Assembly: GCF_016786325.1 (NCBI RefSeq)
Contig: NZ_JADWYU010000132.1
Location: 1-64,000, forward strand
Length of the DNA: 64,000 bases
Reading direction: 5' to 3'
DNA from: Frankia nepalensis
GTDB taxonomy: Bacteria > Actinomycetota > Actinomycetes > Frankiales > Frankiaceae
Below are positions 4,226 through 52,077 of this stretch, piece after piece. The position numbers and the translations under genes were made by a program. Each line of letters starts with the position of its first letter. The first letter of the stretch is position 1. The notes below the pieces were generated by a model. It worked only from the letters and a program-made list of their open reading frames with translations, made no database searches and was not told the origin of the DNA.

Positions 4226-4324
4226 ACCGCCAGAGCGGAGAGAGCAGGCGGGGCGCGGACGTCGCCCGACGGCGACCGCGACGGTCCGCGCGTCGCCGCA
4301 TCGCGGGCCGCTGTCGGCCGATGG

Positions 4325-4915: not shown

Positions 4916-4937
4916 CGCATCCTCCCACCACCGAGCT

Positions 4938-4986
4938 TGCTAAACGGGACAGCGTCCCGTATCGTCAAACGGGACATCGTCCCACT
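4938..4986. promoter_or_regulatory. Two TetR-type operator dyads over divergent promoters
   Basis: The palindrome ACGGGACAGCGTCCCGT at 4945-4961 is followed by a second copy, ACGGGACATCGTCCCAC, at 4970-4986, with centres 25 bp apart. On the plus strand TTGCTA (4938-4943), a 17-bp spacer and TATCGT (4961-4966) form a promoter-like pair with the first dyad filling the spacer. On the minus strand TTGACG (4969-4964) and TTTAGC (4945-4940), 18 bp apart, flank the same dyad. This is the expected layout for a TetR repressor blocking both directions. Confidence 0.75.
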
Positions 4987-5212
4987 TCCTCATGATGGCA
5001 GATCGGGGAACCGACAACCACCCCGCGCACAGCCATCACGCGCCCAGCCGCCATGCGTACCGCGAAGGAAGAAACGATCACGCACCGTGCCGCGGGCCGC
5101 GTGGGAACGCGCTGCGGCGCGCTTGCGCTCGGCACGACATCCCGCGGGACGGGCCTCCGCTTATCCCACGGCCCGCCGCCGCCAGCCGAAACATCCGCGA
5201 GGAGGGCCCTTC

Positions 5213-6157
5213 ATGGCCGAATCTGACAGGACGATCACGGAGGCGGACGTCGACGCGCCCGCTCCGATCGTCTCGGTGAAGCCGGTGGTGCTGCCGGCGC
5301 CGGGCCGCGGGGAGGACCTGCGGGTGAGGGTGTCCGCGCCGACGACCGGGCGCGAACTGCCGATCATCGTCTTCTCGCACGGCTTTGGCTCGTCGCTGGA
5401 CGGCTACGGCCCGCTGGCCGACTTCTGGGCCGCCCACGGCTTCGTGGTCATTCAACCGACCCATCTTGACTCGAGGACACTGGGCATTCCGCCGGACGAT
5501 CCCCGCGCCCCTCGGATCTGGCGTTTCCGCGTCGAGGACCTGAAGCGGGTCCTCGACCATCTTGACCTGCTGGAAGCCGCCGTTCCCGGCCTCGGCGGAC
5601 GCCTGGACCGAGACCGGATCGCCGCCGCCGGGCACTCGTTCGGCGGCCAGACAGCAGGCAATCTCCTGGGCCTGCGAGTCCTCGATCCGGAGACCGGGAA
5701 AGAGGAGGACCTGGCCGACCCGCGCGTCAGCGCGGGCGTCCTGCTCGCCACCGCCGGACGCGGCGGAGCCGACCTGACGCCCTTCGCGGCCGAGCACTTC
5801 CCCTTCATGAACCCGAGCTTCACCGAGATGACCACGCCGGCCCTCGTCGTCGCGGGGGACCGAGACGACTCCCCGCTGTCCGTCCGCGGGCCGGACTGGC
5901 TCACCGACCCGTACTTCCTGAGCCCGGGCGGCAAGAGCCTGCTCACCGTGTTCGGGGCGGAACACTCGCTCGGCGGAATCCCCGGCTACGAGGCCAGGGA
6001 GACGACGGACGAGAGCCCTGAACGAGTCGCCCTGGTCCAGCGAATCACCTGGGCCTACCTTCGCGCCGCGCTCGGCATCGAGGATTCCAGCTGGTCGGCG
6101 GCGCGCAGGGCCTTGCGGGAGAGCGCCAGTCCACTCGGCCGGATCGAATCCAGATGA
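5213..6157 (+). CDS. Alpha/beta hydrolase (chlorophyllase/PAF-acetylhydrolase-like)
   Basis: The 314-aa hydrolase has the oxyanion region IVFSHGFGSS (about residues 52-61), the nucleophile elbow AGHSFGG and a late histidine in AEHSLGG. The fold and insertions resemble chlorophyllase-like or dienelactone-hydrolase-like esterases. The ATG at 5213 follows GAGGAGGGCC. The frame remains open to 4529 but overlaps the TetR gene and is not protein-like there. Its position opposite TetR with shared operators suggests that induction responds to the compound it degrades. Substrate unknown. Confidence 0.88.
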   Translation: MAESDRTITEADVDAPAPIVSVKPVVLPAPGRGEDLRVRVSAPTTGRELPIIVFSHGFGSSLDGYGPLADFWAAHGFVVIQPTHLDSRTLGIPPDDPRAPRIWRFRVEDLKRVLDHLDLLEAAVPGLGGRLDRDRIAAAGHSFGGQTAGNLLGLRVLDPETGKEEDLADPRVSAGVLLATAGRGGADLTPFAAEHFPFMNPSFTEMTTPALVVAGDRDDSPLSVRGPDWLTDPYFLSPGGKSLLTVFGAEHSLGGIPGYEARETTDESPERVALVQRITWAYLRAALGIEDSSWSAARRALRESASPLGRIESR

Positions 6158-6428: not shown

Positions 6429-7562
6429 CTACAGCGGCTGCAGGTCGCCGGACCCGAACGGGGTCCACTTCATGTAATGGCGATGGTGGGACGGGTTCCA
6501 CACGCTGTCTCCATGCTCCGCGCCCAGTATCACGCTGATCGTGGTCCCGGCGCGCAGCAGAACGCTGCCCGTATTTTCCAGGTCATCGATGGCCAGCACC
6601 CGGAAATGCACTCCTTCGCCGCTCACCAGAAAAAATGACTCAGGTGCCGATTGGCTATTTTTTTCCGCCATCAGCACCAGTATTCCGTCGGTCGGCACGG
6701 CATACCGGCTCCCGTTGGCCGGACCAACGATAGTTGTCGTCTTCCCGGCCATGGCGACCTTGCCGGTGGCGCTCAGGTCGGTGGCGTCGACGTGGGGGCG
6801 GGTGACGGTGACGGTGGTGTGCAGGATGCGCTCGGCGTGGTCCTCGCCGACCTGGGCGCGGCCCCGCAGGTAGAAGGTGGTGGTGCTGGTCAGGTTGTTG
6901 ACGGTGAATTCCCGGCGGTCGGTGACGTCGATGTCGGTGGCGCCGTAGAGCAGCCGGTAGTTCGCGTTCTGCGAGGCTTCCCAGCGCAGGGTGACGCTGC
7001 CGCCGTTGTCGACCTCGATGGGGGTCACGGTGAGGTTGCGCAGGTAGAAGTCGCGCGGGAACTTGCCGACCTCGATGACGGTCTGGGGTTCGTTCCAGGT
7101 GCTCTCGCCCTGAGGACGAGATCTTTCGATGATGGTGATCGGCGCGCTGCCGACCTGGCGGTTGACCGGGATGCCACGGAACTGGATGGTGATGCCCTCG
7201 TTGACGGAGATGGTGCCGTGTCCGGTGGGCGGGGCGAAGATGAACCGGCCGGTCTGGCTGTCGAAGGTGGGCGTCCAGCCGTCGATGCTGATGGACGCGG
7301 TGACGCCCTGGAGGTTGAGCGCGAATTCGGGTGAGCGTTCGCCGTCGGGGATGCGCACGGAGATGCGCGCGCATTCCAGGGGCAGGCTGGAACGCCGGGT
7401 GCCGACGATGATGATCTCGGCCTTCTCCGGTTCGCCGGAGGCCGGCGACACCCGTACGGGGTCGGGGACGGTCATGAGTTCGAATTCCAGGCCGGGTCCG
7501 GTCTCGAACCGGATGTCGGCGCCTTCGGCGGCCGGTCGCTGGAGCTGAAGCACCGTGGCCAT
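6429..7562 (-). CDS. Uncharacterised beta-rich protein, last gene of the four-gene operon
   Basis: The 377-aa product has no signal peptide. Residues about 10-180 are beta-rich with no family I recognise. A fibronectin/Ig-like segment follows (GGSVTLRWEAS, then FTVNNLTSTTTFYLRGRA) and resembles carbohydrate- or surface-binding domains. The C-terminal ~110 residues contain alternating strands ending GSGDLQPL. The ATG at 7562 has GGAGAACACG in front of it; the frame upstream runs into the preceding gene and was discarded. It lies 71 bp downstream of the 1184-aa gene and is probably co-transcribed. Function unknown. Confidence 0.72.
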   Translation of the reverse strand: MATVLQLQRPAAEGADIRFETGPGLEFELMTVPDPVRVSPASGEPEKAEIIIVGTRRSSLPLECARISVRIPDGERSPEFALNLQGVTASISIDGWTPTFDSQTGRFIFAPPTGHGTISVNEGITIQFRGIPVNRQVGSAPITIIERSRPQGESTWNEPQTVIEVGKFPRDFYLRNLTVTPIEVDNGGSVTLRWEASQNANYRLLYGATDIDVTDRREFTVNNLTSTTTFYLRGRAQVGEDHAERILHTTVTVTRPHVDATDLSATGKVAMAGKTTTIVGPANGSRYAVPTDGILVLMAEKNSQSAPESFFLVSGEGVHFRVLAIDDLENTGSVLLRAGTTISVILGAEHGDSVWNPSHHRHYMKWTPFGSGDLQPL

Positions 7563-7633
7563 CGTGTTCTCCTTCGGCGGGCGGCGGCGCGGCGCCGCGC
7601 GGTGGGTTCGGGCGGGTGCGGGGTTGGACGGGT

Positions 7634-10600
7634 CTAGCGGGTGGCGGAGTGGCGAGTGGCGGACGCGGCGTCGTCGAGGACGAGGAAGCCGGAGCGGATC
7701 TCGGGCGCGCCGACGGGTGCCTCGTCGTCGGTGGGCGCCACCATCGGCCAGCGGGCCCACTGCCCGTCGAAGGGTTCGGTCCAGCTCCAGGTGCCGACGG
7801 CGGTGGCGGGTCGGGGGATGGCCATGGCGTCGACGAGCTGGCCGTCGGGGGTTTCGATCTGGCGGGGCGCGGCGAGCAGCGGGCCGGTACGGAAGCAGAT
7901 CGCCATGCGGGTGAGCGCGGCGGTGACGAAGCGTTCGGGCACCCGCAACTGGCCGACGGGGAGGATGTCGGTCACGGCGTGGACGGCGGCGCGGGGGTCG
8001 AACAGCAGGGTGAGGATGGCGTTGTCCTCGCCGGCGAAACTCAGCCGCAGGCGGGAGCCGTCGCCGATCGGGCGCAGGTAGTCGCCCGCCGGGCCACGGG
8101 GGTCGACGACGGTCTCGAAGTGGTCGTAGTCGTCGTTGAGGACGTAGCCGACGAGCCCGTCGTCGGTCATGGGTGCCTCGCCGAGGCGGATGGTCCATGG
8201 GTAGGTGGGCATCTGCGGGGTGGGTGGGGACAGGACGGCGCGCCAGTGGACGTCCCGGCGGATCGGCCCGCACAGTTCCAGGTCGACGCGGGCGCGGACC
8301 AGGGCGAGCGGCCGGCCAGCGAGGAAGCTCAGCGCGGTGTCGTCGGGCCCGTCGGGGTCGATCGTGGTGAGCGCCTCGTCGATGGTCTGGCGGACGGCGG
8401 TGAAGGTGTCGACGCCGCGTTCCTTGATGGTGCGCAGGAAGCGGTACAGGTGGGGGTAGGGGCCGGCGAGCTCGCCGAAGTCGGTGAGCGGGGAGCCGGG
8501 CAGCGGGGTCCAGTCGACGATCCGGTCGCCCGACGGCGCCATCACGACCCGCAGCTCGCCGAGGGCGGCGCCGTCGGGGTCGTAGCAGGCGAGGGATGCG
8601 TCGAGCCGGTTGTGCAGCAGCCAGCCGGCGACCGGGTTCTCGCCAGGGGCGAGGTCGACGTCGTCGCCGACGTTACCGGTGTGGGTGGCGGGCAGCAGGT
8701 CGAAACGGAGCCTGGCGGGCTGGAGCAGCCGGGGCGACAGCTCGATGAACCGGTCCGGTTCCACGGGGTGGACGGGGTGGTCGGGGACCATCGTGTCGGG
8801 GACGACCGGGGTGAAGTGGTAGTCGTTCGTGATGAGGTTGACGGCCCGGCCGAACCGGTCGACGACCGACAGCCTGGTGAACTTCATCTGGCCGGCGCGC
8901 AGCTCGACGAACTGTGACGGTTCCCATTCGTCCCACTCGTCGAGCGGCTGGGGCCCCGGGTCGGGCGCGCGGTAGTCGCCGTCGGCGAGCAGGTCGGCGA
9001 TGGCGCCGGTGGGATGGGCGGTCGCGGCGGGCTCGCGCTGGCCGACGGCGGCGCCGAGGCCGTCGAGGCGCTGCACGAGCAGGTCGGACTGTTCGGCGTC
9101 GTCGCGCAGGGCCCTGGCGACGGTGGCGGCCGGGTCGTCGCGGTGGCGGGCGTAGGTGTCGAACCGGCCGGCCGTGGCGTGCCCGACCGACGGGGTGAGG
9201 TACTGGCGGCCCCGGACGACACGGGACTTCGCCGGGGCGCCGACGCCGAGCCAGCGGTAGCGGTTGCTGTCCCACTTCCAGTGCTCGGTGGCGCCGTCGC
9301 GGAACGTCAGCGGGTAGAACTCCGCCTCCCACATCATGTAGAGCGGCTGCCAGGGCTGCCGCCACGGCGCGGCGCCGAGTTCTGGCAGCGTGCCGGTGAC
9401 CGTGGCGGTGGCCAGGTCCATGCCGGCGGCGAGCGCGCGGTCGAGGATGAGGAACTCGGTGAGCGCGCCGCGGATCGCGTCGAGCAGCTCGGCGGGCAGC
9501 CCGCCGAGGGCGACCTTGGCCAGGTCGGCGGCGACGTCGGCCGCGCCGATGGTCGTCCGGCCGCCGGCGACGCGGGTGACGTGCCGGTCGGGCAGCCGGC
9601 ACGGCAGGGCGTCGCCGCGGATCAGGGGGGCGTTGAGGCGGGCGCCGGCGAGGACGACGGCGGGGTCGGCGTGCTGCTCGAACGGGTCACGCGGTACCCG
9701 GGTGAGCCTGCGGTCCCCGACGATGCCGTGGTCGGTGGCGTAGGCGGCGATGCTCGCGGCGAGTTCCGCGTGCTCCAGGCCCCAGGGCAGGGTCCGGCGG
9801 GCGGTGGCCAGGGCGGCGGTGAGCGCGGCGACCTGGCCGGCGGTGCCGTCGGGGTTCGCCGGGTCGAGCTGCGCGCCGATCTTCGACCGGAACTCGTCCG
9901 GCTGCTTCGACAGCCGCGACAGCCACCACAGCTGGTAGAGGCGTTCGCGGGCCGCGGTGAGGTCGTGCTCGAGGCGGTCGTGGGCGCGCTGGGCCCGGTT
10001 GAGGTCGGCGACGACGGTGTCCTCGGCACGCTGGCGGCGGGCCAGCGCGGCCGAGGACAGCGACGATGGCGTGCTCGGGTCGCCGCGGCCGACGACCTGC
10101 CAGCGGTAGCCGCCGGGCACCGGGCCGAAGCCGCCCTGGTGCGCGGTGCGTTCGACGATCTCCTCGCCGTCGCCGCGGTCGAGGTCGTCGAGAGCGCCGA
10201 GCAGGAACGCCCGGAACAGCGCGGCGTCGTCCGCGCTGAACGCGTCGGGCCCGTCGGCCTGCTCCTGCAGTTCGGCGGCGGCCTCGGCCGCGCTGTTGCC
10301 GATCGCGACCGCGACCGTGGAGCCGTCGGGGCTGTCGGAGTCGGGGACGGCGCCGTCCGGGTCCCAGTCGACGCCGAGCGCCGTGCCGGTGTAGAGGGTG
10401 CGGCGCCCGACGGCGGCCGCCGGGCCGGGCACCGTCCATTCCAGCTTCTCGAGCAGGTCGGTGAGCTCGCCGTCGGCGAGGATGTCCGAACCGGCGGTGG
10501 CGTACCAGCCGGCGACGGCGTAGCTGAGCCGGTCGGCGCCGGTGACGTCGTCGAGGGTGTCGTGGATCGAGAAGACGTTCTCGTTGTATGGCTGGAAGAC

Positions 10601-39499: not shown

Positions 39500-40213
39500 G
39501 TGCCATCAACCAGCCCTCCCAGCCCGGCGACGGCCATCCGCATCGCGTCCCGCTACGCCGCGGTACTCGACTTCGAGATACATTCTCCGGCGGGCTGGGG
39601 AAGCGGATCGGAGATCGACGATACAACCCTCGCCGCGCTGCGGGCCTTCCGCGCCGAGGTGCTGTGGTCGGATGGCCGCCGGCCGGCGTTCCGAAGTCCC
39701 GACAACCAGTTCGTCGACGCCGACGAATCCGACCCCGACGCGTTTCACCTGGCGCTGCGCGACCGGGCGGACGGCACTCTGGTGGGCTACGTGCGCGCCA
39801 TCCCCGCCGAGCGGTGTGCCCTCTCGTCGCCGGAGCGGCTGATCGGGGCCGGGCCGGTCAGCGCGGCACTCGCGGCGCACGGTGCCACCAGGGCCGACAT
39901 CCTGGACACCGGCCGGCTCGTGGTCGCCGGCGGCCGGCGCGGCAAGGGCACCGCGCCGCTGCTCGTCGCCGCCCTCGTCGCGCTCGGTCGCGATGTCGAC
40001 CGACCCATGATGCTGTGCGCGGCGGGAACCCGGGACGGTCAGCACCTCCTGTACCAACGACTCGGCTACACACCCATGACCAGTTGTCGCGTGCCGTCGG
40101 ACCGGTACGACGACGACATGTGCCCGATGCTGCGTGACGCCCGGCGCCGCATTCCCGGGGTCGACATTCTTGCCGAACAGTTCGAGGAACAGACAGGAGT
40201 CTTCCGCGCATGA
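39500..40213 (+). CDS. GNAT resembling autoinducer / N-acyl amino acid synthases
   Basis: The 237-aa protein shows the FeeM/LuxI-like pattern: FRAEVLWSDGRRPAF, a conserved NQFVDADESD segment, HLALRD with VGYVRAIP, LDTGRLVVAGGRRGKGTAPLL (acyl-donor loop) and AAGTRDGQHLLYQRLGY near the C-terminus. Members use acyl-ACP to acylate an amine (homoserine lactone precursor or amino acid). An ACP and KASIII are encoded two and three genes downstream, which supports an acyl-ACP donor. Start GTG 39500 is the only good option. Its stop overlaps the next ATG (ATGA). Confidence 0.75.
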   Translation: MPSTSPPSPATAIRIASRYAAVLDFEIHSPAGWGSGSEIDDTTLAALRAFRAEVLWSDGRRPAFRSPDNQFVDADESDPDAFHLALRDRADGTLVGYVRAIPAERCALSSPERLIGAGPVSAALAAHGATRADILDTGRLVVAGGRRGKGTAPLLVAALVALGRDVDRPMMLCAAGTRDGQHLLYQRLGYTPMTSCRVPSDRYDDDMCPMLRDARRRIPGVDILAEQFEEQTGVFRA

Positions 40214-41067
40214 CCCAGTACAGCGACCACACCGGCCGCGCCGCCCCGGCGCCGGCCGTCGGAAATTCCACCGTGACCGGCGAAGGAACGGGAACCGGAA
40301 AAGAAGACGACCCAGGGTCCGAGACCGTCGCCTTCGCCGCCTACGAGGCCGGCGTGACCCCCGCGCGGCAGGCCGTCGAATATCACCCCGGACTGCGCGG
40401 CCTTCTCGCGGACGACGGCGATCCGAGGCTTTTCCACGCCTGGATGCTGCGCTATTCGGTACACGGCGTGCACATGACGAGGCCGGTCGAGGGCTGGATC
40501 TCGACGGCCGGCGACCACTGCGCCGAGATCGGCCTGGCCGACCTCGGCCGCGCGCTGCGGGCGCACGCCCGCGCGGAGTCGGGCCACGAGCAGATGATGA
40601 TCACCGATGCCCGGTACCTGGCGACACACCCCGCCGGCCGCGACGGCATCGACCTCGAGGCGCTGTTCGCCGCGCCGCCGCTGGCCAGCGCGCTCGACTA
40701 CATCGAGCTGCACCACGACACGATCGAAGGCACCCGCCCCTACGGCCAGGTCGCGATCGAGTACGAGATCGAGCGGCTGTCCACGGCGATCGGCCCGACC
40801 GTGCTGGTGGCCGCCCGGCGCTTCATCGGCCCCGACGGCGCCGGCTACAGCTTCGTCGCCGACCACGTCGAGCTCGACCAGGGGCACACCACGTTCAACC
40901 GCCGCCAGCTCACCGGCGTGCTCACGGAACGCCCCGACGACCTGGAGTACCTGGTGGCGACGGGAACCCGGGCGCTGCGCACCTATCTCGGATTCCTCAC
41001 CGAGTGCCTCGACCTGGCTCGTGCCGACCTGACCGGTCGGCAGCCGCTGGCCGGGGCGTCCCGGTGA
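40210..41067 (+). CDS. Haem-oxygenase-like diiron protein (HDO / iron-containing redox enzyme)
   Basis: The 285-aa helical protein has the metal-ligand pattern of the family: Glu123-x2-His126 (ARAESGHEQ), candidate Glu184/186/188 (VAIEYEIERL) and His219-x3-Asp223-x2-His226 (DHVELDQGH). The last spacing matches the one I recall for CADD. Related enzymes do N-oxygenation, oxidative decarboxylation to alkenes, or C-C cleavage in natural product pathways. The first ~35 residues are low-complexity. It overlaps both neighbours by four bases, so it is clearly part of the operon. Reaction unknown. Confidence 0.78.
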   Translation: MTQYSDHTGRAAPAPAVGNSTVTGEGTGTGKEDDPGSETVAFAAYEAGVTPARQAVEYHPGLRGLLADDGDPRLFHAWMLRYSVHGVHMTRPVEGWISTAGDHCAEIGLADLGRALRAHARAESGHEQMMITDARYLATHPAGRDGIDLEALFAAPPLASALDYIELHHDTIEGTRPYGQVAIEYEIERLSTAIGPTVLVAARRFIGPDGAGYSFVADHVELDQGHTTFNRRQLTGVLTERPDDLEYLVATGTRALRTYLGFLTECLDLARADLTGRQPLAGASR

Positions 41068-42056
41068 GCCCGCGCGTGGGCGGCGCGCGGCTGCTCGGTC
41101 TCGGCGGCGCCCTGCCCACCCGGGTGGTGACCAACGACGAGCTGTGCGCCCGCCTCGACAGCAGTGACGAGTGGATCCGCGCCCGCACCGGCGTGCGGAC
41201 CCGGCGTATCGCCGGCGCCGGCGAGTCGGTCGCGCAACTCGCCGCCGTCGCCGGCGGCAAGGCCCTCGCCGACGCGGGGCTCGCTCCCGCCGACGTCGAC
41301 CTGGTGATCCTGACGTCCTCCAGCCGGCCGTCCCAGATCCCCGGGCTCGCCCCGGAGATCGCCGACCTGCTCGGCATCCGCGCGGCCGGCACCTTCGACA
41401 CGATCGCGGGCTGCGCCGGCTTCTGCTACGCGCTCGCCACGGCCGCGTCCGCCGTGACGAGCGGCACGACCCGCAACGCGCTCGTCGTCGCGTCCGAACG
41501 GGTCACCGACTACGCCAACTGGGACGACCCCAAGGCGGCGCCGTTGTGGGGTGACGGCGCCGGCGCCGCCGTCGTCGGCGGCGACGCGGGGTTCGGCGGA
41601 GGCGGGCTCGACGAGGGCGAGGGCGGGCTCACCGCCCCTATCGGACCGCCGGTGTGGGGTCATGACGGCTCCCGCAAGGATCTGATCCGCGTGCCCGGAG
41701 GCGGCGACGACCTCCTGCGCATGGACGGCCGGTCGGTGTTCCGGTGGGCGGCCAGCCTCGCGCCGAAGCTGCGCGAGGCGTGCCAGCGCGCGGGGATCCA
41801 GCCGGCCGAGCTCGCCGGCGTCGTCGTCCACCAGGCGAACCTGCGCCTCGTCGACGCGCTGGTCGACACCCTCGGAGCGGACCGCGCGGCGATCGCCCGC
41901 GACGTCGTCGAGGTCGGCAACACGTCCGCCGCGAGCATTCCGCTCGCGCTCACCCGGATGCGCACGAGCGGCGAGCTGCGTCCCGGCGACCCCGTCCTGC
42001 TCTTCGCCTTCGGCGCCGGCCTGACCTACTGCGGCCAGGTCATCCGGTGCCCCTGA
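41064..42056 (+). CDS. 3-oxoacyl-ACP synthase III (KASIII/FabH-like)
   Basis: The 330-aa protein has the full KASIII triad: Cys117 (AGCAGF), about His256 (VVVHQANLR) and about Asn286 (VGNTSAASIP), and ends with the FGAGLTYCGQ loop. It would condense an acyl-CoA starter with malonyl-ACP. A glycine/acidic insertion near residue 180 (GGGGLDEGEGG) is unusual. The GTG 41064 overlaps the HDO stop. In this operon it probably supplies or extends the acyl chain on the neighbouring ACP rather than serving primary fatty-acid synthesis. Confidence 0.9.
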   Translation: MSPRVGGARLLGLGGALPTRVVTNDELCARLDSSDEWIRARTGVRTRRIAGAGESVAQLAAVAGGKALADAGLAPADVDLVILTSSSRPSQIPGLAPEIADLLGIRAAGTFDTIAGCAGFCYALATAASAVTSGTTRNALVVASERVTDYANWDDPKAAPLWGDGAGAAVVGGDAGFGGGGLDEGEGGLTAPIGPPVWGHDGSRKDLIRVPGGGDDLLRMDGRSVFRWAASLAPKLREACQRAGIQPAELAGVVVHQANLRLVDALVDTLGADRAAIARDVVEVGNTSAASIPLALTRMRTSGELRPGDPVLLFAFGAGLTYCGQVIRCP

Positions 42057-42117
42057 CGGGGACGCGCCCGCCCCGTCCGTCCCACGCCCCGACGCCCAGC
42101 CACGAAAGGCGGTTCGC

Positions 42118-42426
42118 ATGTCACCCTCGGAGATCCTCACCCACCTGACGGCCATCCTCGTCCGGGTCGCGGAGGTCGACTCCGCCGCGGTGACCGCCGA
42201 CAAGTCGTTCGTCGAGGACCTGGACGTCGACTCGCTCGTGCTCGTCGAGGCCGTCGTCGTCGCCGAGGACGAGTTCGGCGTCCGGATCAGCGACGACGAC
42301 ATGGAGCACATCTCGACGGTCGGCGAGCTCGTCGGCCACATCGAACGCGCGTCGTCGAGCGCGGCCGGCGAGACCGGTCCAGCCGAGGCCGCGGGCGTCG
42401 GCGCGGGGTCGGCCGGGCAGGCATGA
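42118..42426 (+). CDS. Acyl carrier protein
   Basis: The 102-aa acidic helical protein has the phosphopantetheine site Ser39 in DVDSLVLVE. After the ~75-residue ACP fold there is an Ala/Gly-rich tail. Its last codons overlap the ATG of the oxidoreductase gene by four bases. It is probably the dedicated carrier for the KASIII and GNAT encoded in the same operon. Confidence 0.93.
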   Translation: MSPSEILTHLTAILVRVAEVDSAAVTADKSFVEDLDVDSLVLVEAVVVAEDEFGVRISDDDMEHISTVGELVGHIERASSSAAGETGPAEAAGVGAGSAGQA

Positions 42427-45400
42427 CCCCGCCGGCAGCGGTTCCCGCGCACCGGACGCCCTCGGCGACCGGCGGGAGTCATCCGCGAAGCGCGCCCGCC
42501 GGCACGCTCACCGCCCCGCTCTCGTCCGCGGGCGAGGCCGGGTGCGCGTCGGGCCGGCCCGGTGCCGGACCGCCGGCGGCGGCTTCGGCCGGGCCGGTGC
42601 TCACCGGCGTCGGCGCGCTGGTGCACGCCATCGCCCGCAACCGTCGGCGCGACCTCGCCGCCGGGCACCGGACCGGCGCGTTCGTCTCGGGCTATCCGGG
42701 CAGCCCGCTCGCGGGACTCGACCTGGAGCTCTCCAGGCACGCCGAGCCGCTCGCGCGGCTCGGCGTCGTGCACCGGCCCGGTGTCAACGAGGAGCTCGCC
42801 GCGACCGCCGTCGCCGGCAGCCAGCTCGCCGCGGGCCTGCCGGGCGCGCGGGTCGACGGCGTGACCGGCTGGTGGTACGGCAAGGCACCCGGTCTGGACC
42901 GCGCGGTCGACGCGCTGCGGCACGGTAACGTCGCCGGCACCGGCCCGCTCGGTGGCGTCGTGCTGCTCGTCGGGGACGACCCCGAGGCCAAGTCGTCGAC
43001 GTTGCCCAGCGCGTCCGAGGGGACGCTGCGCGACCTGCTGGTCCCGGTGTTCTATCCGGGCTCGGCGGCCGAGATCGGCCCGTTGGCCGACCACGCGGTC
43101 GCGCTGTCGCGGGCGAGCGGCCTGTGGGCCGCGTTGAAGATCGTCGCTTCGGTCGCGGACGGTTCGGTGACGGTCGCGGCCCGCCGCGCGGGCCCGCGGA
43201 CCGACGGCGGGCTCAGTGCCACGGACGGCGGGCTCGGGTCAGCGGACGGCGGGCTCGGCGTCGATCCGGTGATACCGGTCGTGGAGCACCGCGGCCGGCC
43301 GTACACGCACCGGCCGACCGGCCGGCTCCTCCCCCCGGCCACGCTGGACCTGGAGGAGGCGCTGCACACGGTCCGGCTCGAGATCGCCCGCCGCTACGGC
43401 CGGGAGAACGGGCTGAACCGGGTGGTGGTCCGCGGCCCGGCCGACCGGCTCGGAGTCGTCGTGCCCGGCCGGCTGTACCGCGACCTTCGCCAGGGCCTCG
43501 CCGACGAGGGCGTCACCGACGACATGCTGCGCGCCGCCGGCGTCCGGCTGCTGCACCTGGCGCTGCTCTGGCCGCTCGACCCGGCGCTGTCGCGGGAGTT
43601 CGGGCGCGGGCTCGACGAGGTGCTGGTGCTGGAGGAGAAGCAGGCATTCGTCGAGCCGGGTGTCCGGGATGCCCTCTACGGCCTGCCGGACGCGCCGCGG
43701 GTCGTCGGCCGCCACGACGAGCACGGCCACCCGCTGGTCCCGGCGCACGGGGTGCTCACCGCGGCGCGGCTGGCCGAGCTGGTGCGGGCGCGGTGTGCCG
43801 GCCGGCTGCCACGGCCGCGGACCACGCTCACCGTCCTGCCGACGCGGGCCCGCCCAGTGCCCGTCGGGTCGGGCTCCGCCGCGACACGGGCCGCGACCCC
43901 GGCCGGTATGCCGGCCCGCACGCCCGCGTACTGCTCCGGCTGCCCGCACAACCTGTCCACGCAGGTTCCGGACCCCACCACGCTGGTCGGCGCCGGGATC
44001 GGCTGCCACGCGATGGTCACCTGGGCTGACCCGGACCGGTTCGGCCAGGTCGTAGGGATCACCCAGATGGGCGGGGAGGGCGCGCAGTGGGTCGGCGCCG
44101 AGCCGTTCGTCGAACCGGCCGCGACCCGGCAGGGGTTCGTCCAGAACCTCGGTGACGGCACCTACTTCCACTCGGGTCAGCTCGCGGTACGCCAGGCCGT
44201 GGCGGCGGGCGCCACCCTCACCTTCAAGATCCTCTACAACGGCGCGGTGGCGATGACCGGCGGGCAGGACCCGACCGGGCGCGTCGGCGTGCCGGAGCTG
44301 ACCCGGATGCTGGAGCTGGAAGGCGTCACCCGCACGATCGTCACCACCGAGGACCCGCGCCGCTACCGGCGCGCGCGGCTGGCCGGCAACGCCCAGGTCT
44401 GGCACCGCGACCGGCTCGCCGAGGCGCAGCGCGCGCTTGGCGCGCGGACCGGCGTGACGGTACTCGTGCACGACCAGCGGTGCGCGGCCGAGACGCGGCG
44501 CGACCGCGCCCGGGGCGTGGCGGCCGCGCCCACCGAGATCGTTGTGATCAACGAACGGGTCTGCGAGGGATGCGGCGACTGCGCGGCCGTCTCCAACTGT
44601 CTGTCGCTGCATCCGGTCGACACCGAGCTCGGCCCGCGCACCCGGATCGACCAGTCGTCCTGCAACCTGGACCGGTCCTGCGTCCGCGGCGACTGCCCGT
44701 CGTTCGTCACCGTCCCCGCGCCGCGCGGGGTCACGCCCGGCCAGTCGGGCGCCGGGCCGGCCGACGCCGTGAGCGGCGCCGGGTCCCCGCGGTGGGCGGC
44801 CGCGCTCCCGCCGCCGCACTGCCCGCCGGCGGTTCCACCGGCGCCGGACGGGCCGGGTGGTGGCTTCGCCGTCCGCATGGTCGGTGTCGGCGGCACCGGC
44901 GTCGTGACCGTGAACCACATCCTGCTGGCGGCGGCCGCCCGAGACGGCCTGCACGCCGCCGCGCTGGACCAGACAGGGCTCGCGCAGAAGGGCGGGCCGG
45001 TGGTGTCGGAGCTGCGGATCGGGACGGCCCCGCCGGACGGCAACCGGGTCGGCCCCGCCGGCTGCGACGTCCTGCTGGCGTTCGACCCGCTCGGGGCGAC
45101 CAGCCCCCCGACGCTCGCGGCGCTCGACCCGCGCCGCTCGTCGGTGGTCGCGGCGAGCACCGCCGCTCCGACCATCCAGATGGTCACCGACGCGCGGCTG
45201 CGCGCGCCGGACCCGACCACGCTGCGCGCCGTGCTCGCCGAGCGGACCTCGCCTGGCCGGGTGAACGTGATCGACGCGCGCCGCATCGCCACCGAGCTGG
45301 TCGGCGACCCGATGGGCGCGAACCTGGTCCTGCTCGGCGCCGCGTGGCAGACCGGGCTGCTCCCGCTCAGCCTCGAGGCGCTGCTCGCGGCCATCACCGG

Positions 45401-46406
45401 CGGGAACACCGGCGCGGCGGGCAGGGCTGGCGGACGGGGGGCCCGCGACCTGGCCGCGTTCGGCTGGGGACGGGCGGCCGTGGCCCACCCCGAGGTGGTC
45501 GCGGGCCGCCTCGCCCAGACGCCGGCGCGGTTCCGGCTGCCGGCGGCCGCGCGCGGCCGCGACCTCGTCGACGGCGCGTTCCCGGCCGACGGCCCCGCCC
45601 GCGCCGCGGCGGACCGCGCCGGCCTGCTGGACCTCGTCGCCGCCCGGGCGGCCGACCTGCGCGACTACCAGAACCGCCGCTACGCGCTCGACTACGTGGC
45701 GTTCGTCGCCACCGTCGCCGCGGCCGAGGTGGACCGGCTCGCGGGCTCGACCCGGCTGGCCGAGGCGGTCGCCCGCGGGCTGCACAGGTTGCTCGCCTAC
45801 AAGGACGAGTACGAGGTGGCCCGTCTGCACCTGCGGTTCCACGCCGACGTGCGTGCGGCCGCGGCGGCCGCCGGAACCGACCACGCGGACATCCGCGACG
45901 GCGCGGTCGCGGCGCCGGCAGGCCCGCGCGGCCCGCGGTGGCCGTGGGGACTGGGCGGCCTGCGTTGGCATCTGCGCCCGCCGTTGCTGCGGGCGCTCGG
46001 CGTCAACCGGAAGATCCGCGTCGGGGGTCCGCTCGGCGTCCTCGCGCTACGTTCGCTCGTCGGGCTGCGCCGGCTGCGCGGCACACCGTTCGATCCGTTC
46101 GGGTACACCGCGCTGCGCCGGACCGAACGCGCGCTGATCGCCGAGTACCGCGCGGCCGTGCTCGCGACACTGCCCGGGCTCACCGCCGCGACCGCGGAAA
46201 CCGCGCTGGCGGTGGCCGGCGCGGCGGAGCTGGTCCGCGGCTACGAGCGCGTCAAGCTGGCCAGCGTGGACGCCTTCCGCGCCGCGCTCGGCGGTCCGTC
46301 GTCAGGCCACGGCCATGCCGACGTCGACGGCGGTCAGGGCCGCGTCCATCGTGGGGCCGCCGGCCAGGCTGAGGATCGCGAGACCGCATCCGGCCGCGTT
46401 GGCTGA
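42423..46406 (+). CDS. Indolepyruvate/2-oxoacid:ferredoxin oxidoreductase, large fused form
   Basis: The 1327-aa protein has the order alpha (pyrimidine-binding; VSGYPGSPLAGLDLEL, VNEELAATAVAGSQ), ThDP-binding half (CSGCPHNLST, LGDGTYFHSGQ, YNGAVAMTGGQ), a 4Fe-4S region (CEGCGDC-) and a C-terminal gamma domain (VGVGGTGVVTVNHILL). It would convert a 2-oxoacid (aryl or branched-chain) plus CoA to acyl-CoA, reducing ferredoxin. This could furnish starter acyl-CoA for the KASIII. The ~50-residue N-terminal extension is low-complexity. The last 105 bp overlap the convergent RHS gene, and the final ~35 residues look non-homologous, so the stop may have been lost recently. Confidence 0.88.
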   Translation: MTPPAAVPAHRTPSATGGSHPRSAPAGTLTAPLSSAGEAGCASGRPGAGPPAAASAGPVLTGVGALVHAIARNRRRDLAAGHRTGAFVSGYPGSPLAGLDLELSRHAEPLARLGVVHRPGVNEELAATAVAGSQLAAGLPGARVDGVTGWWYGKAPGLDRAVDALRHGNVAGTGPLGGVVLLVGDDPEAKSSTLPSASEGTLRDLLVPVFYPGSAAEIGPLADHAVALSRASGLWAALKIVASVADGSVTVAARRAGPRTDGGLSATDGGLGSADGGLGVDPVIPVVEHRGRPYTHRPTGRLLPPATLDLEEALHTVRLEIARRYGRENGLNRVVVRGPADRLGVVVPGRLYRDLRQGLADEGVTDDMLRAAGVRLLHLALLWPLDPALSREFGRGLDEVLVLEEKQAFVEPGVRDALYGLPDAPRVVGRHDEHGHPLVPAHGVLTAARLAELVRARCAGRLPRPRTTLTVLPTRARPVPVGSGSAATRAATPAGMPARTPAYCSGCPHNLSTQVPDPTTLVGAGIGCHAMVTWADPDRFGQVVGITQMGGEGAQWVGAEPFVEPAATRQGFVQNLGDGTYFHSGQLAVRQAVAAGATLTFKILYNGAVAMTGGQDPTGRVGVPELTRMLELEGVTRTIVTTEDPRRYRRARLAGNAQVWHRDRLAEAQRALGARTGVTVLVHDQRCAAETRRDRARGVAAAPTEIVVINERVCEGCGDCAAVSNCLSLHPVDTELGPRTRIDQSSCNLDRSCVRGDCPSFVTVPAPRGVTPGQSGAGPADAVSGAGSPRWAAALPPPHCPPAVPPAPDGPGGGFAVRMVGVGGTGVVTVNHILLAAAARDGLHAAALDQTGLAQKGGPVVSELRIGTAPPDGNRVGPAGCDVLLAFDPLGATSPPTLAALDPRRSSVVAASTAAPTIQMVTDARLRAPDPTTLRAVLAERTSPGRVNVIDARRIATELVGDPMGANLVLLGAAWQTGLLPLSLEALLAAITGGNTGAAGRAGGRGARDLAAFGWGRAAVAHPEVVAGRLAQTPARFRLPAAARGRDLVDGAFPADGPARAAADRAGLLDLVAARAADLRDYQNRRYALDYVAFVATVAAAEVDRLAGSTRLAEAVARGLHRLLAYKDEYEVARLHLRFHADVRAAAAAAGTDHADIRDGAVAAPAGPRGPRWPWGLGGLRWHLRPPLLRALGVNRKIRVGGPLGVLALRSLVGLRRLRGTPFDPFGYTALRRTERALIAEYRAAVLATLPGLTAATAETALAVAGAAELVRGYERVKLASVDAFRAALGGPSSGHGHADVDGGQGRVHRGAAGQAEDRETASGRVG

Positions 46407-49400
46407 CGGGCCCACGCATTCCTGGTAGATCGAGTACGCGTCGCCGATCGGTCCGAGGTACCTGGCCACCGGACTGCTTCTGATCTTGTCGGCTATCCAG
46501 CGCGCACCGTTCGAGATCACCTGGACGCCCTTTTTCACCGCCCTGACGAACGCGCTGCCGGCGGCTCTCAGCTTCGACCACGTGTGTTTGCGCGTCGCCC
46601 CGGGCGAACGCGCGTTCGGGTTGTCCGTCGATGGACCGCCGGCGAACTGGGCCACGGCCCCGATGACCTCGCCGGCCGAGTCGAAGTCAACGAGGTCCGT
46701 GAGCTCGCCGGCCGCGCCGGTGAAGGCGGCCAGACCGGGCAGGTCGGTGCCGGAGCTGAGCACGTTGACCGCGAGGACCGTCGCGCGCACCACCGTGGCG
46801 GCGAGCCACTCGGGAAACTGGCCGGACGGGTCGACCCGGTTGAGCGGGTCGCCACCGGCGAAGCCGTAGGGTGTCCCGGTCGTGGCCAGCTCCGGGTCCG
46901 GGGTGAAGAAGGCGGCCGTGTCCAGGTCGTAGAAGCGCGCGCGCAGGTACTGGCAGTTGCAGGCGTGGTCGGTGTACTGGCCGTTGAACTGGAGGAGGGA
47001 GCCGGCACCTCTGACCTCGCTGAAGTCGACGTGGCCGTAGGGGCTGTAGGTGTAGGACGCCGTCCATTCCCCCGAGGGGTCGGTGACGAGGCGGACGCTG
47101 CGCTGCGGGTCGGTGATCAGATAGGTCGGGCTGTCGCCGCTTACCTGCTCGAACGGCTCGCCTCCCGGCCCGTACAGGTAGGAGACGACGCCGTCGCCGA
47201 TCAGCAGCGGGTTCTTGCCGGAGACGTCCCAGGTGAAGGGGACGGTGTCCCGGCCGTGCTGGGTCCTGCCGACGAGAAGGCCGTCGCCGTCGTAGGTGTA
47301 GTGGACCCGGCAGTCCTCGCCGTCGTCGTCGCAGTCGTAGCCGGTGAGCCGGTCCTCCTGGTCGTAGCCGAGCTGGACGCCCTGGCCGTCCGACCGGACC
47401 GTCCGGGTCCGCGCGCCCGAGCCGTTGTACGCGAACGAGTTCACTGGCTTCTTGCCAGGACGGGTCTGGCCCGTGATTCGCCCCTGTGGGTCGATCGCGA
47501 TCTGTGTTCCGTCCGGGAACCGGGTGATGCCGCCGGTTCCGTGGTAGGCGTATGTGCCGCCGCATTCCTCGGGCTGGCAGTTTATCGACGCGAGCTGGCC
47601 GGAGGGCTGGTAGTCGAACGTGTCGTTCCACCCCTCGGGCACACCGGGGCCGACGATCGTCGTCTGCGTGATCTGACCGATCTCGTTCCGCTGGTACGTG
47701 AACGTTGCCATGGGTTCGTCGTCGTTGTCTCCGCCGGTTTTGTGGACCACGACCTCGTTCTGGGTGTACGTGACGCGGACGCCGTTCGGGTAGGTGATCT
47801 CGGAGAGCAGACCGTCGGGCGCGTAGGCGAACCTCGTACGGTTCGCCTTCCAGTCGGTCACCTCGACCACGCGGCGGTCGTCGTAGAGGCTGTAGTCGTA
47901 AAGGACCCGCCTGTTGCCCGGATAGATGATCTCGACGCGGCGCCCGGCCTCGTCGTACCTGTAGCCGACGTCCTCGCCGCCTCGGAGCTCGGGCAGTTCG
48001 TCCAGCTTGCAGTGATGCTTCTCGGCGTCGGAGGCGCGGTCCCCGTGGACGACCGCCAGGACCCTGCCCGCGCAGTCGTAGTAGTACCCGGTGACCTTCT
48101 CGCCGACCTTCATGGTCCCGCGATGCCCGTCGGACGTGTACTCGAAATGAACGGAGGTCCTGTCCACCGAGTAGGAGATGCCCACCAGCTGGTTCGCGTC
48201 GTCGTACCGGTACTCCGTCGCCTCTTCGGGCCCGCCGTCCCCGGAGTGGACGAGTTTGACGAGGTTCCCGGCCAGGTCGTACTCGTAGCGGGTCCTGCCC
48301 CGCAGGATGTCGGAGATCTGCCTGATCCGGCCGCGGGTGTCGTAGGCGTACTCCGTGGCGTTTCCGGCCGCGTCGGTCACCGTGCGCGGGGTGTCGTCGT
48401 CGTTGTAGGTGACGACGACACCCTGAATGGCGGGGGTGGCACCATCCCGGGATCTCTGGGTGTCCAGGGTACGGCCGGCGAAGTCCTTCCGCGTCTTCGT
48501 GATGTAGCCGGCGGCGTCCGTCACGGTCGTCGCGGAGGAGCCGGTGTCCGCCTTCTCAGGGTCGGTCTGGAAGGTGTCATACGTGACCGCCGTCGTCGCG
48601 TCACCGCTGGTCACGCTGGCCAGGCGCCCATGGTCGTCATAGCTGTACCTGGTCGGGTTCTTCGCCTCCTCGCAGACGGCATCGGGGGCTTCGGCCTCCA
48701 CCATCACCTGACAGGTCAGCTCGCCGCTGCGGCCATAGCCGCTGAGAGTCTTCTGCCAGGTTCCCTGGACGCTGCCCACGAGGTCGCCGGTCACCGGGTC
48801 GTAGGTGAAGCTGGTCCGCGCCCGCCCCGGCTCGGCGATCGACGTGACCTGGTCCAGATGATCGGGACTCACGTCGTAGCCGGTCGCGCGGTCCTCGGCG
48901 TCGACGCTCGTCGCCAGGCCGCCGTCGTCATAGACGAGGAACGAGGTCACTCCGCTTGGCAGCGTGACGCTCTCCGGCCTTCCGTCCTCGGTGTACGTGT
49001 AGGTCGTCGTCCTGCCCAGCGGGTCGGTGAGCGTGGCGATGTTGCCGGCGTCGTCGTACTCGTACGTCGTCGTCTTGCCTCGTTGGTCGACGACGGCGGT
49101 CGGCAGGCCGACGTCACCGACCAGCGGGTAGGAGTAGCGGATGGTGCCGCGCTCCCCGCCGGCGCCCTCGGCAAGCTCGGTGAGCCTCGCCTGGCCATCG
49201 AACACATAGCTCGTCACATGCCCTGCGGGATCCGTCATGGTCGTCGCACCGCCGGCATTCGGCGTGGCCACGCCGGACGATGGTGATGACGACGATGGTC
49301 GTGGTGACATCGTGGCGTTCGCCGTCGCTGTGACGCTCGGCGTGGCCCGCGTGGCCGAAACACTCGGCGCGGTCGCCGTCGCCGACCCGCCCGGCGGGGT

Positions 49401-50372
49401 CGTGAACGGCGTCCCCACGTACGTGAACCTGGTCGGCTCCTTTCGAGCGAGTTCCCTGACGGACTCGACGCGGCCGTCAGGGTAGTACTCGATGCTGGTC
49501 TTCGTTCCGGGCTGCTTGATCTCCTCCTCGAGCAGATGATGCTCGTCATACCGGAAATCCCAGATCACGGTGTCCGGCTCCGTGACACGATCAAGCTCGC
49601 CGTCGTCGGTGTAGACAAAAGTCGCGGTCCGCTGCTTCGGCACCCCGACCTCCTCGATCACCTCCTCGATATGACGACCCGCCGCGTCATACCGGAAGAC
49701 CAGCTTCCGGTAGCTGCCCGGGCGCCCGACGGTGAGCGCCGGGTAGCCGTCCTTCACTCCCCGAACCACGTCAGTCCGCTCCCCGGACAAGGTCTTCGTC
49801 CACTGGAGCTGGCCGTTGGCGTCGAAACCAAAGCTCCCCCCACCCCCGCGCCGGGTGAGGACATGGGTGTCACCCTCCCTCCTGAGCGACGCGAGCACCC
49901 TGGGCGGCGCCTCGTACTCACCGTCCGCGCCCACCGTGAAGGTGACCGTCGAACCGTTCTCCTGGTAGATGACGACCGTGCCGTCGCCGGAGTGCTCCAG
50001 TTTCATTCCGTAGTTGAAGCTCCAGCCGAGGCCGAAGCCGACGTCCTTGCCGGCGTTCACCGAGCTGTATGTGCGCACCAGCTCCAGCGGGCCGCCCGGC
50101 GCGGGCAGCGAGAAGTCCGTGAACTGCGCCCAGAACGCGCCGGACGCGCAGTTGACCGGCCCGGCGAGCGCGCACTCCGGCTGCCGCTCGCTGGGGTTCG
50201 GGGCCCCACCCTGCTCGGTGAGGGTCGGCGGCTGCATCGTCCGCGCGGCGTCGCTCGCCGGCTCGGACCCAGACCGATTCAAGGCCGGAAGGCCGAGTAA
50301 GACAAAGAGGAGCACGCCCACAAGCGTGACGATCCCGGCGCCGCCTAACGCGCGCTTCCTACGACCGCTCAT
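46302..50372 (-). CDS. RHS/YD-repeat protein with N-terminal membrane anchor
   Basis: The 1356-aa protein begins with a basic stretch and one hydrophobic segment (residues 14-30), then a DUF6531-like opening (CASGAFWAQFTDFSLPAPGGPLELVRTYSS), many YD repeats (YDDAGNIATLTDPLGRTTTY) and an RHS core box (FNGQYTDHACNCQYLRARFYDLDTA, split here by a residue change). The ~140-residue tail after DPSGQFPEW is hydrophobic and helical and would be the variable effector domain; I do not recognise a toxin fold. A Ser/Thr/Pro-rich stretch interrupts the repeats near residues 340-390. No immunity-like gene is adjacent. Role, likely surface or contact-dependent, is inference. Confidence 0.87.
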   Translation of the reverse strand: MSGRRKRALGGAGIVTLVGVLLFVLLGLPALNRSGSEPASDAARTMQPPTLTEQGGAPNPSERQPECALAGPVNCASGAFWAQFTDFSLPAPGGPLELVRTYSSVNAGKDVGFGLGWSFNYGMKLEHSGDGTVVIYQENGSTVTFTVGADGEYEAPPRVLASLRREGDTHVLTRRGGGGSFGFDANGQLQWTKTLSGERTDVVRGVKDGYPALTVGRPGSYRKLVFRYDAAGRHIEEVIEEVGVPKQRTATFVYTDDGELDRVTEPDTVIWDFRYDEHHLLEEEIKQPGTKTSIEYYPDGRVESVRELARKEPTRFTYVGTPFTTPPGGSATATAPSVSATRATPSVTATANATMSPRPSSSSPSSGVATPNAGGATTMTDPAGHVTSYVFDGQARLTELAEGAGGERGTIRYSYPLVGDVGLPTAVVDQRGKTTTYEYDDAGNIATLTDPLGRTTTYTYTEDGRPESVTLPSGVTSFLVYDDGGLATSVDAEDRATGYDVSPDHLDQVTSIAEPGRARTSFTYDPVTGDLVGSVQGTWQKTLSGYGRSGELTCQVMVEAEAPDAVCEEAKNPTRYSYDDHGRLASVTSGDATTAVTYDTFQTDPEKADTGSSATTVTDAAGYITKTRKDFAGRTLDTQRSRDGATPAIQGVVVTYNDDDTPRTVTDAAGNATEYAYDTRGRIRQISDILRGRTRYEYDLAGNLVKLVHSGDGGPEEATEYRYDDANQLVGISYSVDRTSVHFEYTSDGHRGTMKVGEKVTGYYYDCAGRVLAVVHGDRASDAEKHHCKLDELPELRGGEDVGYRYDEAGRRVEIIYPGNRRVLYDYSLYDDRRVVEVTDWKANRTRFAYAPDGLLSEITYPNGVRVTYTQNEVVVHKTGGDNDDEPMATFTYQRNEIGQITQTTIVGPGVPEGWNDTFDYQPSGQLASINCQPEECGGTYAYHGTGGITRFPDGTQIAIDPQGRITGQTRPGKKPVNSFAYNGSGARTRTVRSDGQGVQLGYDQEDRLTGYDCDDDGEDCRVHYTYDGDGLLVGRTQHGRDTVPFTWDVSGKNPLLIGDGVVSYLYGPGGEPFEQVSGDSPTYLITDPQRSVRLVTDPSGEWTASYTYSPYGHVDFSEVRGAGSLLQFNGQYTDHACNCQYLRARFYDLDTAAFFTPDPELATTGTPYGFAGGDPLNRVDPSGQFPEWLAATVVRATVLAVNVLSSGTDLPGLAAFTGAAGELTDLVDFDSAGEVIGAVAQFAGGPSTDNPNARSPGATRKHTWSKLRAAGSAFVRAVKKGVQVISNGARWIADKIRSSPVARYLGPIGDAYSIYQECVGPSANAAGCGLAILSLAGGPTMDAALTAVDVGMAVA

Positions 50373-51144: not shown

Positions 51145-51175
51145 TTGACTCTCACATCGATGTCAGAGTTTAGCT
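51145..51175 (+). promoter_or_regulatory. MerR-type promoter with 19-bp spacer and dyad operator
   Basis: TTGACT (51145-51150) and TTAGCT (51170-51175) are separated by 19 bp. The spacer is filled by a near-perfect 22-bp dyad (51148-51169, arms ACTCT...AGAGT around ACATCGATGT). This over-long spacer with a central palindrome is the hallmark of MerR-activated promoters. The -10 ends 8 bp before ATG 51184, so the transcript is probably leaderless. Confidence 0.8.
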
Positions 51176-51183
51176 TGACCGGC

Positions 51184-52077
51184 ATGACCACTCGGAACTC
51201 GACCCACGGCGATCGGCCGCGCGTGACCATTCTCGGCCTCGGCCGGATGGGGACCGCGCTGAACAGGGCGCTTCTTGCCGCCCACTACCAGACGACGGTG
51301 TGGAACCGGACCCCGTCGAAGGTCGACGGCCCGGTGGCCCTGGGCGCCGAACGCGCGGAAACCCCCGGCGCCGCGATCACGGCGAGCCCGATGACCGTCG
51401 TCTGTGTCGCGGACTACGCGGGGGTTCAGGAGGTACTGGCCGCGGGAGGCACCACGTTGCGGGGACGTACCCTGGTCAACCTCACCACCGGCACGCCGCG
51501 GGACGCCCGGGACATGGCGGCCTGGGTCGCCGGACGCGGCGCGGACTACCTGGACGGGGCGATGATGGCCGTTCCCCAGTCCGTCGCCACCCCCAGCGCG
51601 TTCTTTCTCTACAGCGGCTCCCAGGACGCGTTCGACCGCCACCGGCGCGCGCTGGACGCCCTGGCGACCAGCCACTATCTCGGCCACGACCCCGCCGCGG
51701 CGGAGCTGTGGGACCTCGCCCTGCTCGACAGCGGGTACGCGGCCCTCGCGGGCTTTCTTCACGGCCTCGCCCTGCTCGACACCGCGGCTGTCCCGCCGTC
51801 CCGTTTCGTGCCTCTGGTCGCCCAGTGGCTGCGCGGTATGACCGAGTACATGTCCGAGCTGGCGGGGGAAATCGAGTCCGGCGACTATTCAGCCGGTGCC
51901 TCGCCGGTCGGCATGAACCGGGCCGCGGTCATGAGCCTGATCCGCGTCAGCGAGGATCTCGGTATCGACGCCGCGCTGCTCGGCCCGCTCGGAACCCTGC
52001 TCGAGCGCGGTGTCGCGCAGGGGCGTGGCGACCAGAGCTTCGCGAGCCTGTTCGAACTCCTGCGGCGCGTCCACTGA
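51184..52077 (+). CDS. NAD(P)-dependent oxidoreductase of imine reductase / beta-HAD type
   Basis: The 297-aa protein has an N-terminal Rossmann domain (VTILGLGRMGTALNRALL, then TVWNRTPSK) and a helical C-terminal dimerisation domain with LALLDSGYAALAGFLHGLALL, a pattern typical of imine reductases rather than of 6-phosphogluconate dehydrogenase or hydroxyisobutyrate dehydrogenase. It would reduce a cyclic imine or carbonyl with NADPH. It lacks a ribosome-binding site and is likely translated from a leaderless message controlled by the divergent MerR protein. Confidence 0.82.
   Translation: MTTRNSTHGDRPRVTILGLGRMGTALNRALLAAHYQTTVWNRTPSKVDGPVALGAERAETPGAAITASPMTVVCVADYAGVQEVLAAGGTTLRGRTLVNLTTGTPRDARDMAAWVAGRGADYLDGAMMAVPQSVATPSAFFLYSGSQDAFDRHRRALDALATSHYLGHDPAAAELWDLALLDSGYAALAGFLHGLALLDTAAVPPSRFVPLVAQWLRGMTEYMSELAGEIESGDYSAGASPVGMNRAAVMSLIRVSEDLGIDAALLGPLGTLLERGVAQGRGDQSFASLFELLRRVH

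Follow-up and report, generated by a model that had tools for sequence, protein, structure and literature searches.

A five-gene operon in Frankia nepalensis with a possible role in the synthesis of an oxidised N-acyl amino acid

The DNA analysed (the window) is the 64,000 bp stretch at positions 1-64,000 of the Frankia nepalensis contig NZ_JADWYU010000132.1, a contig of 67.5 kb in a 10.7 Mb genome, and operon coordinates refer to this window. Five genes spanning 39500-46406 on the + strand form an operon that, with a probability of about 40 %, produces a small amino acid (or amine) derivative, N-acylated and oxidised, by the combined action of all five products. The genes, in order, are:

39500..40213, + strand, GNAT family protein with a predicted LuxI/FeeM fold, putative TyzA/TrzA-type amino acid N-acyltransferase, 237 aa
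40210..41067, + strand, predicted haem-oxygenase-like diiron oxidase (HDO), 285 aa
41064..42056, + strand, beta-ketoacyl-acyl carrier protein synthase III (KASIII), diverged FabH paralogue, 330 aa
42118..42426, + strand, acyl carrier protein (ACP), diverged AcpP paralogue, 102 aa, with Ser39 in DVDSL
42423..46406, + strand, fused 2-oxoacid oxidoreductase of the indolepyruvate:ferredoxin oxidoreductase (IOR) family, 1327 aa

The reactions, substrates, product and order of steps that we infer from the gene content, motifs, relationships and recurring sub-modules are as follows. The IOR would convert a 2-oxoacid, derived from an aromatic or branched-chain amino acid, to an acyl-CoA, and with this acyl-CoA as starter the FabH-derived KASIII would begin a chain on the dedicated ACP. 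The ACP-bound chain would be reduced by housekeeping fatty acid synthase enzymes, and the GNAT would use the acyl group to acylate an amino acid on its amino group. The HDO would then oxidise the N-acyl product, most likely by desaturation or N-hydroxylation, and would take the place of the ThiF cyclase and nitroreductase oxidase of the tyz and trz oxazolone pathways. The N-acyl transfer is the firmest of these steps, the action of the HDO on the N-acyl product is next, and the link between the IOR and the KASIII is the weakest. In favour of this account, the genes overlap on one strand, the GNAT is homologous to a GNAT paired with TrzS, GNAT-KASIII and GNAT-HDO pairs recur elsewhere, the HDO ligands are intact, the KASIII resembles 1mzj, and the neighbours of IOR relatives are of a suitable kind.

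The layout reported in the preliminary description, with 4-base overlaps at three of the four junctions (ATGA for GNAT/HDO and ACP/IOR, GTGA for HDO/KASIII) and 61 bp between the KASIII and ACP genes, was confirmed from the open reading frames (ORFs) and their translations. The starts used for the GNAT (GTG) and IOR (ATG) genes are the most upstream choices. The IOR start is uncertain, as similarity to the family begins only at residue ~60 and there is an alternative GTG at 42597, and the ACP/IOR overlap therefore hinges on the start chosen. The gene families named in that description were also right, with Pfam and NCBIfam in agreement and only the HDO slightly under the Pfam cut-off. Catalytic motifs are intact in all five genes. 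Neither a ThiF-like cyclase nor a nitroreductase-type oxidase was found among the five genes or in the neighbouring ORFs scanned.

The GNAT matches Acetyltransf_5 (28.4 bits, cut-off 22.4) and contains the motif RGKGTA, and the Pfam FeeM model (PF21926) gave no match at E<=1. Its AlphaFold2 (AF2) model has a predicted local distance difference test (pLDDT) score of 85, and the best structural matches in the PDB were BjaI, MesI, TofI, RpaI, LasI and FeeM (BjaI, E 6.7e-8; TofI, Z 16.8; RpaI, 16.5; FeeM, 15.7, the last found in a second look). The earlier label 'FeeM/LuxI-like' is borne out by this model, for which the acyl-homoserine lactone (AHL) synthases BjaI, MesI, TofI and RpaI rank first and FeeM follows. 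Other GNATs score nearly as high, and the fold thus supports the class and not the substrate. PDB sequence searches with the GNAT and with the HDO returned nothing useful.

The class is further defined by a second GNAT in the Frankia nepalensis genome (contig C67, locus L020), which is 33 % identical to the window GNAT (E 6e-22). Both this GNAT and one in a sister genome (L024) adjoin ThiF-nitroreductase fusions recognised by the NCBIfam equivalog 'Rv1355c family protein'. In Mycobacterium tuberculosis, Rv1355c corresponds to TrzS and Rv1356c to TrzA, which carries out the N-acyl transfer in tryptazolone synthesis (PMC12856293). TrzA and TyzA are both proven amino acid N-acyltransferases (PMC12856293, PMC10404671), and the nearest folds reported for a TyzA model are FeeM and BjaI, as found here for the window GNAT (PMC10404671, PMC12479983). 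On sequence grounds, the window GNAT is assigned to the TyzA/TrzA-type amino acid N-acyltransferases. We note that, given the TrzA-TrzS-like pair at L020 (GNAT and Rv1355c-family ThiF-nitroreductase, 6609-9951, then a gene for a TIR-NB-ARC-TPR protein, 3622-6153), Frankia nepalensis might produce lipids of the tryptazolone type as well.

As LuxI-type synthases have the closest fold, the GNAT could also be a signal synthase, with the operon making a diffusible AHL or a related lactone or amide. However, FeeM has the same fold, sequence relatives of the GNAT are found with ThiF cyclases, the setting known from amino acid N-acylation, and no regulator gene was recognised in the neighbouring ORFs scanned beside the operon, making a signalling role very improbable.

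Amino acid N-acylation is also indicated by the company that homologous GNATs keep. Among 394 genomes of the class, GNAT matches were found in four others, in addition to the second copy in the same genome. The plasmid search with the window GNAT recovered one Streptomyces gene annotated as ThiF, and viral contigs searched with the GNAT and the HDO contained no relatives. A scan of 84,980 species genomes for GNAT loci, which used one motif as the pattern and may miss rare clusters, yielded 25 named actinomycete loci. A ThiF gene adjoins or is fused to the GNAT gene in 23 of the 25, a KASIII gene lies within the next few kb in 21 and an ACP is detectable in four, and GNAT plus KASIII supply is thus a recurring theme. 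No HDO or IOR was found at any of the 25. These cassettes, from Streptomyces, Kitasatospora, Nocardia, Amycolatopsis and others, share with the window a homologous GNAT (23-35 % identity), a KASIII and sometimes an ACP. They differ in that the GNAT is mostly fused to ThiF, the KASIII is from another clade (~34 %), and HDO and IOR are absent. The GNAT-ThiF fusion with KASIII, sometimes with ACP and lacking a nitroreductase, is widespread in its own right (L026-L050, the named actinomycetes, and L022 and L023). To our knowledge, it has no assigned product.

The source of the acyl group could differ from that proposed. The top structural matches of the GNAT are CoA-dependent AHL synthases that use branched or aryl acyl-CoAs, the donor being isovaleryl-CoA for BjaI and p-coumaroyl-CoA for RpaI. 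TrzA also works on short acyl-CoAs (PMC12856293). The GNAT may therefore take an acyl-CoA straight from the IOR, with the KASIII and ACP building a separate second acyl part or acting after the GNAT. However, the operon places the KASIII and ACP genes between those for the HDO and the IOR, and a KASIII, sometimes together with an ACP, also accompanies homologous GNATs elsewhere. We regard direct use of acyl-CoA as unlikely.

The HDO scored slightly under the Pfam cut-off for Haem_oxygenas_2 (PF14518; E=1.2e-5, 25.7 bits, cut-off 28.9), and its single-sequence AF2 model (pLDDT 37.8) was unusable for assessing the seven-helix haem oxygenase fold. In an alignment with seven related HDOs, H119, E123, G125, H126, E127, D133, Y185, E188, F215, H219, D223 and H226 are invariant. 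Because the known ligand pattern of the family is three His and three carboxylates (PMC13108848), E123, H126, E188, H219, D223 and H226 are likely to be the iron ligands. The earlier identification of this protein as a haem-oxygenase-like diiron enzyme is supported by these conserved predicted ligands and not by a structural model.

Relatives of the HDO are few. No matches at E<=1e-3 were found in the rest of the genus, and elsewhere in the family there were only weak matches (27-30 % identity) in two genomes, G031 and G015. At E<=1e-10 one other genome among 394 of the class contained a match, at E<=1e-4 the only match among 396 genomes of the phylum was in the Frankia nepalensis genome itself, and a plasmid search with the window HDO found none. 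The nearest homologue (L013, 9458-10210; 36 % identity) has lost most metal ligands, adjoins a DUF6745 gene in a different gene context and is possibly a non-catalytic relative; for these reasons it was excluded as evidence for HDO function. The profile hidden Markov model for the HDO was built from the checked frames of the HDO loci.

Reactions recorded for HDOs include N-oxygenation, desaturation, C-C cleavage, and azetidine and alkyne formation (PMC13108848, PMC13185094). As fatty acids and amino acids are both substrates of characterised HDOs (PMC13108848), and the dedicated ACP could present a chain, the window HDO might act on the acyl chain, free or ACP-bound, by desaturation or UndA-like decarboxylation, or on the free amino acid prior to acylation, rather than on the N-acyl product. 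This is rather improbable, as the HDO gene directly overlaps the GNAT gene, and pairs of a GNAT with a related HDO also occur at loci that have no annotated ACP nearby.

Oxidation of the N-acyl product by the HDO draws on these GNAT-HDO pairs. Two further genera of the Frankia nepalensis family (genomes G031 and G015) each have an HDO gene that overlaps a gene for a FeeM-like GNAT, followed by genes for an MMPL protein and an AMP-ligase. The loci are:

L148, 8543-14205, HDO, FeeM-like GNAT, MMPL and AMP-ligase cluster
L149, 6991-12976, HDO, FeeM-like GNAT, MMPL and AMP-ligase cluster

The L148 GNAT matches Pfam FeeM weakly (E 0.0064), and the L149 GNAT is 50 % identical to it. The L148 HDO is 57 % identical to an HDO encoded by Pseudomonas syringae-group plasmids, in which the preceding gene is annotated 'acetyltransferase' or hypothetical and has a weak FeeM match (E 0.037). 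This plasmid type of HDO was found in 23 Pseudomonas plasmid records. In two of these plasmids (L150 and L151, Pseudomonas amygdali and coronafaciens), the set comprises anthranilate synthase I/II, a phenylacetate-CoA-ligase-like protein, a small GNAT, the HDO, a flavodoxin, an EamA transporter, an alpha/beta hydrolase and a LuxR regulator. The same GNAT-HDO order is present on an Agarilytica plasmid, with the GNAT above the FeeM cut-off, and on a Deefgea plasmid, with a weak FeeM match (E 0.0039). Methylibium was not counted, as the 218-aa gene before its HDO has no Pfam match. A more distant HDO in Paraburkholderia phymatum (L156, 3390-6640) has two ATP-grasp genes as neighbours, an arrangement that recalls the gene set for mangotoxin.

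In these other pairs, as in the window, the GNAT gene is directly beside the HDO gene and the HDOs have the same invariant residues. However, the supply genes are different (AMP-ligase and MMPL, or anthranilate synthase, phenylacetate-CoA-ligase-like protein and flavodoxin), and sequence similarity to the window pair is low. The recurrence of this adjacency, uncorrected for chance adjacency, supports a functional link and not common descent. No description of a FeeM-like GNAT paired with an HDO was found in the literature searched (open-licence papers). We tentatively suggest, as slightly less than an even bet, that a FeeM/LuxI-fold N-acyl synthase with an HDO is an undescribed biosynthetic module found across Actinomycetota and Pseudomonadota, in which the HDO would oxidise the fresh N-acyl amino acid; the window operon would be a version with its own fatty acid priming line (IOR, KASIII and ACP).

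This priming line is of mixed ancestry. The KASIII matches ACP_syn_III, ACP_syn_III_C and PRK09352 (314 bits, cut-off 249) and has the Cys-His-Asn triad (C117/H256/N286). The housekeeping operon of the same genome is fabD-fabH-acpP-fabF, and the identity between the window KASIII and FabH of the genus does not exceed 64 %, compared to ~86-92 % for the pairs of FabHs compared within the genus. Matches to the KASIII at E<=1e-100 were found in 33 of the 35 genomes sampled from the family and in none outside it, and in the tree its branch is long (0.75) and falls where the FabH group of the family is unresolved. Its closest relative in the PDB is 1mzj, which we take to be ZhuH, a KASIII that primes with non-acetyl starters. 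The ACP (PP-binding, PF00550, 48 bits; DSL motif with Ser39) shares ~50-57 % identity with the housekeeping AcpP, and its gene lies after that of the KASIII in the same way as acpP after fabH. A dedicated KASIII-ACP pair, as previously claimed, is thus supported, and the simplest account of these sequences is an old fabH-acpP duplication within the family, for which the tree gives no exact placement.

The IOR matches the indolepyruvate:ferredoxin oxidoreductase family PRK13030/NF009589 (1152.7 bits, cut-off 816) and POR (gamma domain, 79.7 bits), with a thiamine pyrophosphate (TPP) motif, GDG(577)...N, and a C-rich Fe-S segment at 714. It was compared with IORs of other genomes over a 266-aa TPP/Fe-S segment. 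The closest relatives, in other families, are 68, 67, 63 and 65 % identical, and IORs of its own family are 55-58 % identical, including a paralogue in the same genome (56 %). As the IOR is closer to those of other families and the KASIII-ACP pair is from within the family, the operon is a mosaic. IOR relatives at three loci (L110, L114 and L111) adjoin an acyl-CoA dehydrogenase gene or a set of acyl-CoA carboxylase and dehydrogenase genes, as would suit an enzyme producing acyl-CoA; for the 2-oxoacid used, such neighbours point no further than acyl-CoA catabolism. The formation of acyl-CoA from a 2-oxoacid, assigned to the oxidoreductase in the preliminary description, is consistent with these neighbours.

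Mixed ancestry, with a KASIII from within the family, an IOR closer to other families and a sporadic GNAT and HDO, would also be expected if there were no single pathway, and the genes for a catabolic IOR and a copied fabH-acpP pair had come to lie beside a GNAT-HDO pair. However, the genes are on the same strand with start/stop overlaps, and the copies are intact and diverged, neither fresh duplicates nor decaying genes. A chance assembly of this kind is distinctly improbable.

Several points weigh against the proposed pathway. The complete five-gene set was not found elsewhere in the GNAT and HDO searches of the class genomes, the HDO search of the phylum genomes, the 25 named GNAT loci or 10 IOR loci. 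The preliminary description had proposed that failure of the five genes to occur together in other genomes would count against it, and they never did in the genomes searched, although GNAT-KASIII(-ACP) and GNAT-HDO sub-sets recur. With a single instance of the full set, association of the genes is untestable by conservation. ACP, KASIII, HDO and GNAT are all absent near the 10 other IOR loci, and there are no transporter, regulator or amine-supply genes among the five genes of the operon. The donors reported for TrzA and TyzA are acyl-CoAs, so homology to these enzymes does not imply an ACP donor. The window HDO is only 23-28 % identical to the HDOs of other GNAT-HDO pairs and the GNATs could not be convincingly aligned, so the pairing may be convergent. 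When the window GNAT was compared by profile with those of L148 and L149, no similarity was found.

No described cluster with this gene set was found in the literature searched, in agreement with the earlier statement that no such pathway was known. The nearest are the tyzACB and trzAS oxazolone systems, which that statement did not name. The trzA-trzS pathway (Rv1356c-Rv1355c; PMC12856293) has a GNAT of the same family (33 % between the window GNAT and the one beside the TrzS-type protein of the same genome), and the shared logic would be O2 oxidation of an N-acyl amino acid. However, the window operon lacks a ThiF cyclase and a nitroreductase and has HDO, KASIII, ACP and IOR genes instead. 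The tyzACB tyrazolone and FeeM/NasY N-acyl tyrosine systems (PMC10404671, PMC12479983) are alike in the N-acyltransferase fold but differ in accessory genes, and the window GNAT does not match Pfam FeeM. In the lipothrenin cluster (PMC10616846), an N-acyl amino acid is also oxidised by a diiron N-oxygenase, but this oxygenase has an AurF-like ferritin fold, ThiF is present and the chain is recruited as a dicarboxylic acid. The parts are of known families, an N-acyl amino acid with O2-dependent tailoring is known logic (tyz, trz and lipothrenin), and the gene set itself is undescribed in the literature searched.

In mycobacteria and their relatives, N-acyl amino acids and oxazolones have recently come to be recognised as a class of bacterial lipids. 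If the proposed pathway is correct, an HDO replacing ThiF and nitroreductase, together with dedicated chain-priming genes, would widen this chemistry, and hydroxamates, enamides or alkynes are conceivable products. The window HDO would also join the few HDOs whose gene neighbourhood hints at a likely substrate. Because GNAT-HDO pairs recur, some of them on mobile Pseudomonas plasmids, the idea can be tested.

The operon is flanked by a divergent WD40-type ORF on one side and a convergent RHS-repeat ORF on the other. One further feature was recorded:

46508..46527, + strand, terminator-like hairpin 3' of the IOR gene, weak, consensus only

The number of terminator-like sites found (three) is not significant relative to shuffled sequences (1.0 expected). 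The RHS-repeat protein gene (46302-50372, opposite strand) shares ~100 bases at its 3' end with the end of the IOR ORF. Approximately 5 kb downstream of the operon, near a MerR regulator, the window also contains a gene for a reductive-aminase-like NAD(P)-binding protein (51145-52077; PF21761, PF03446).

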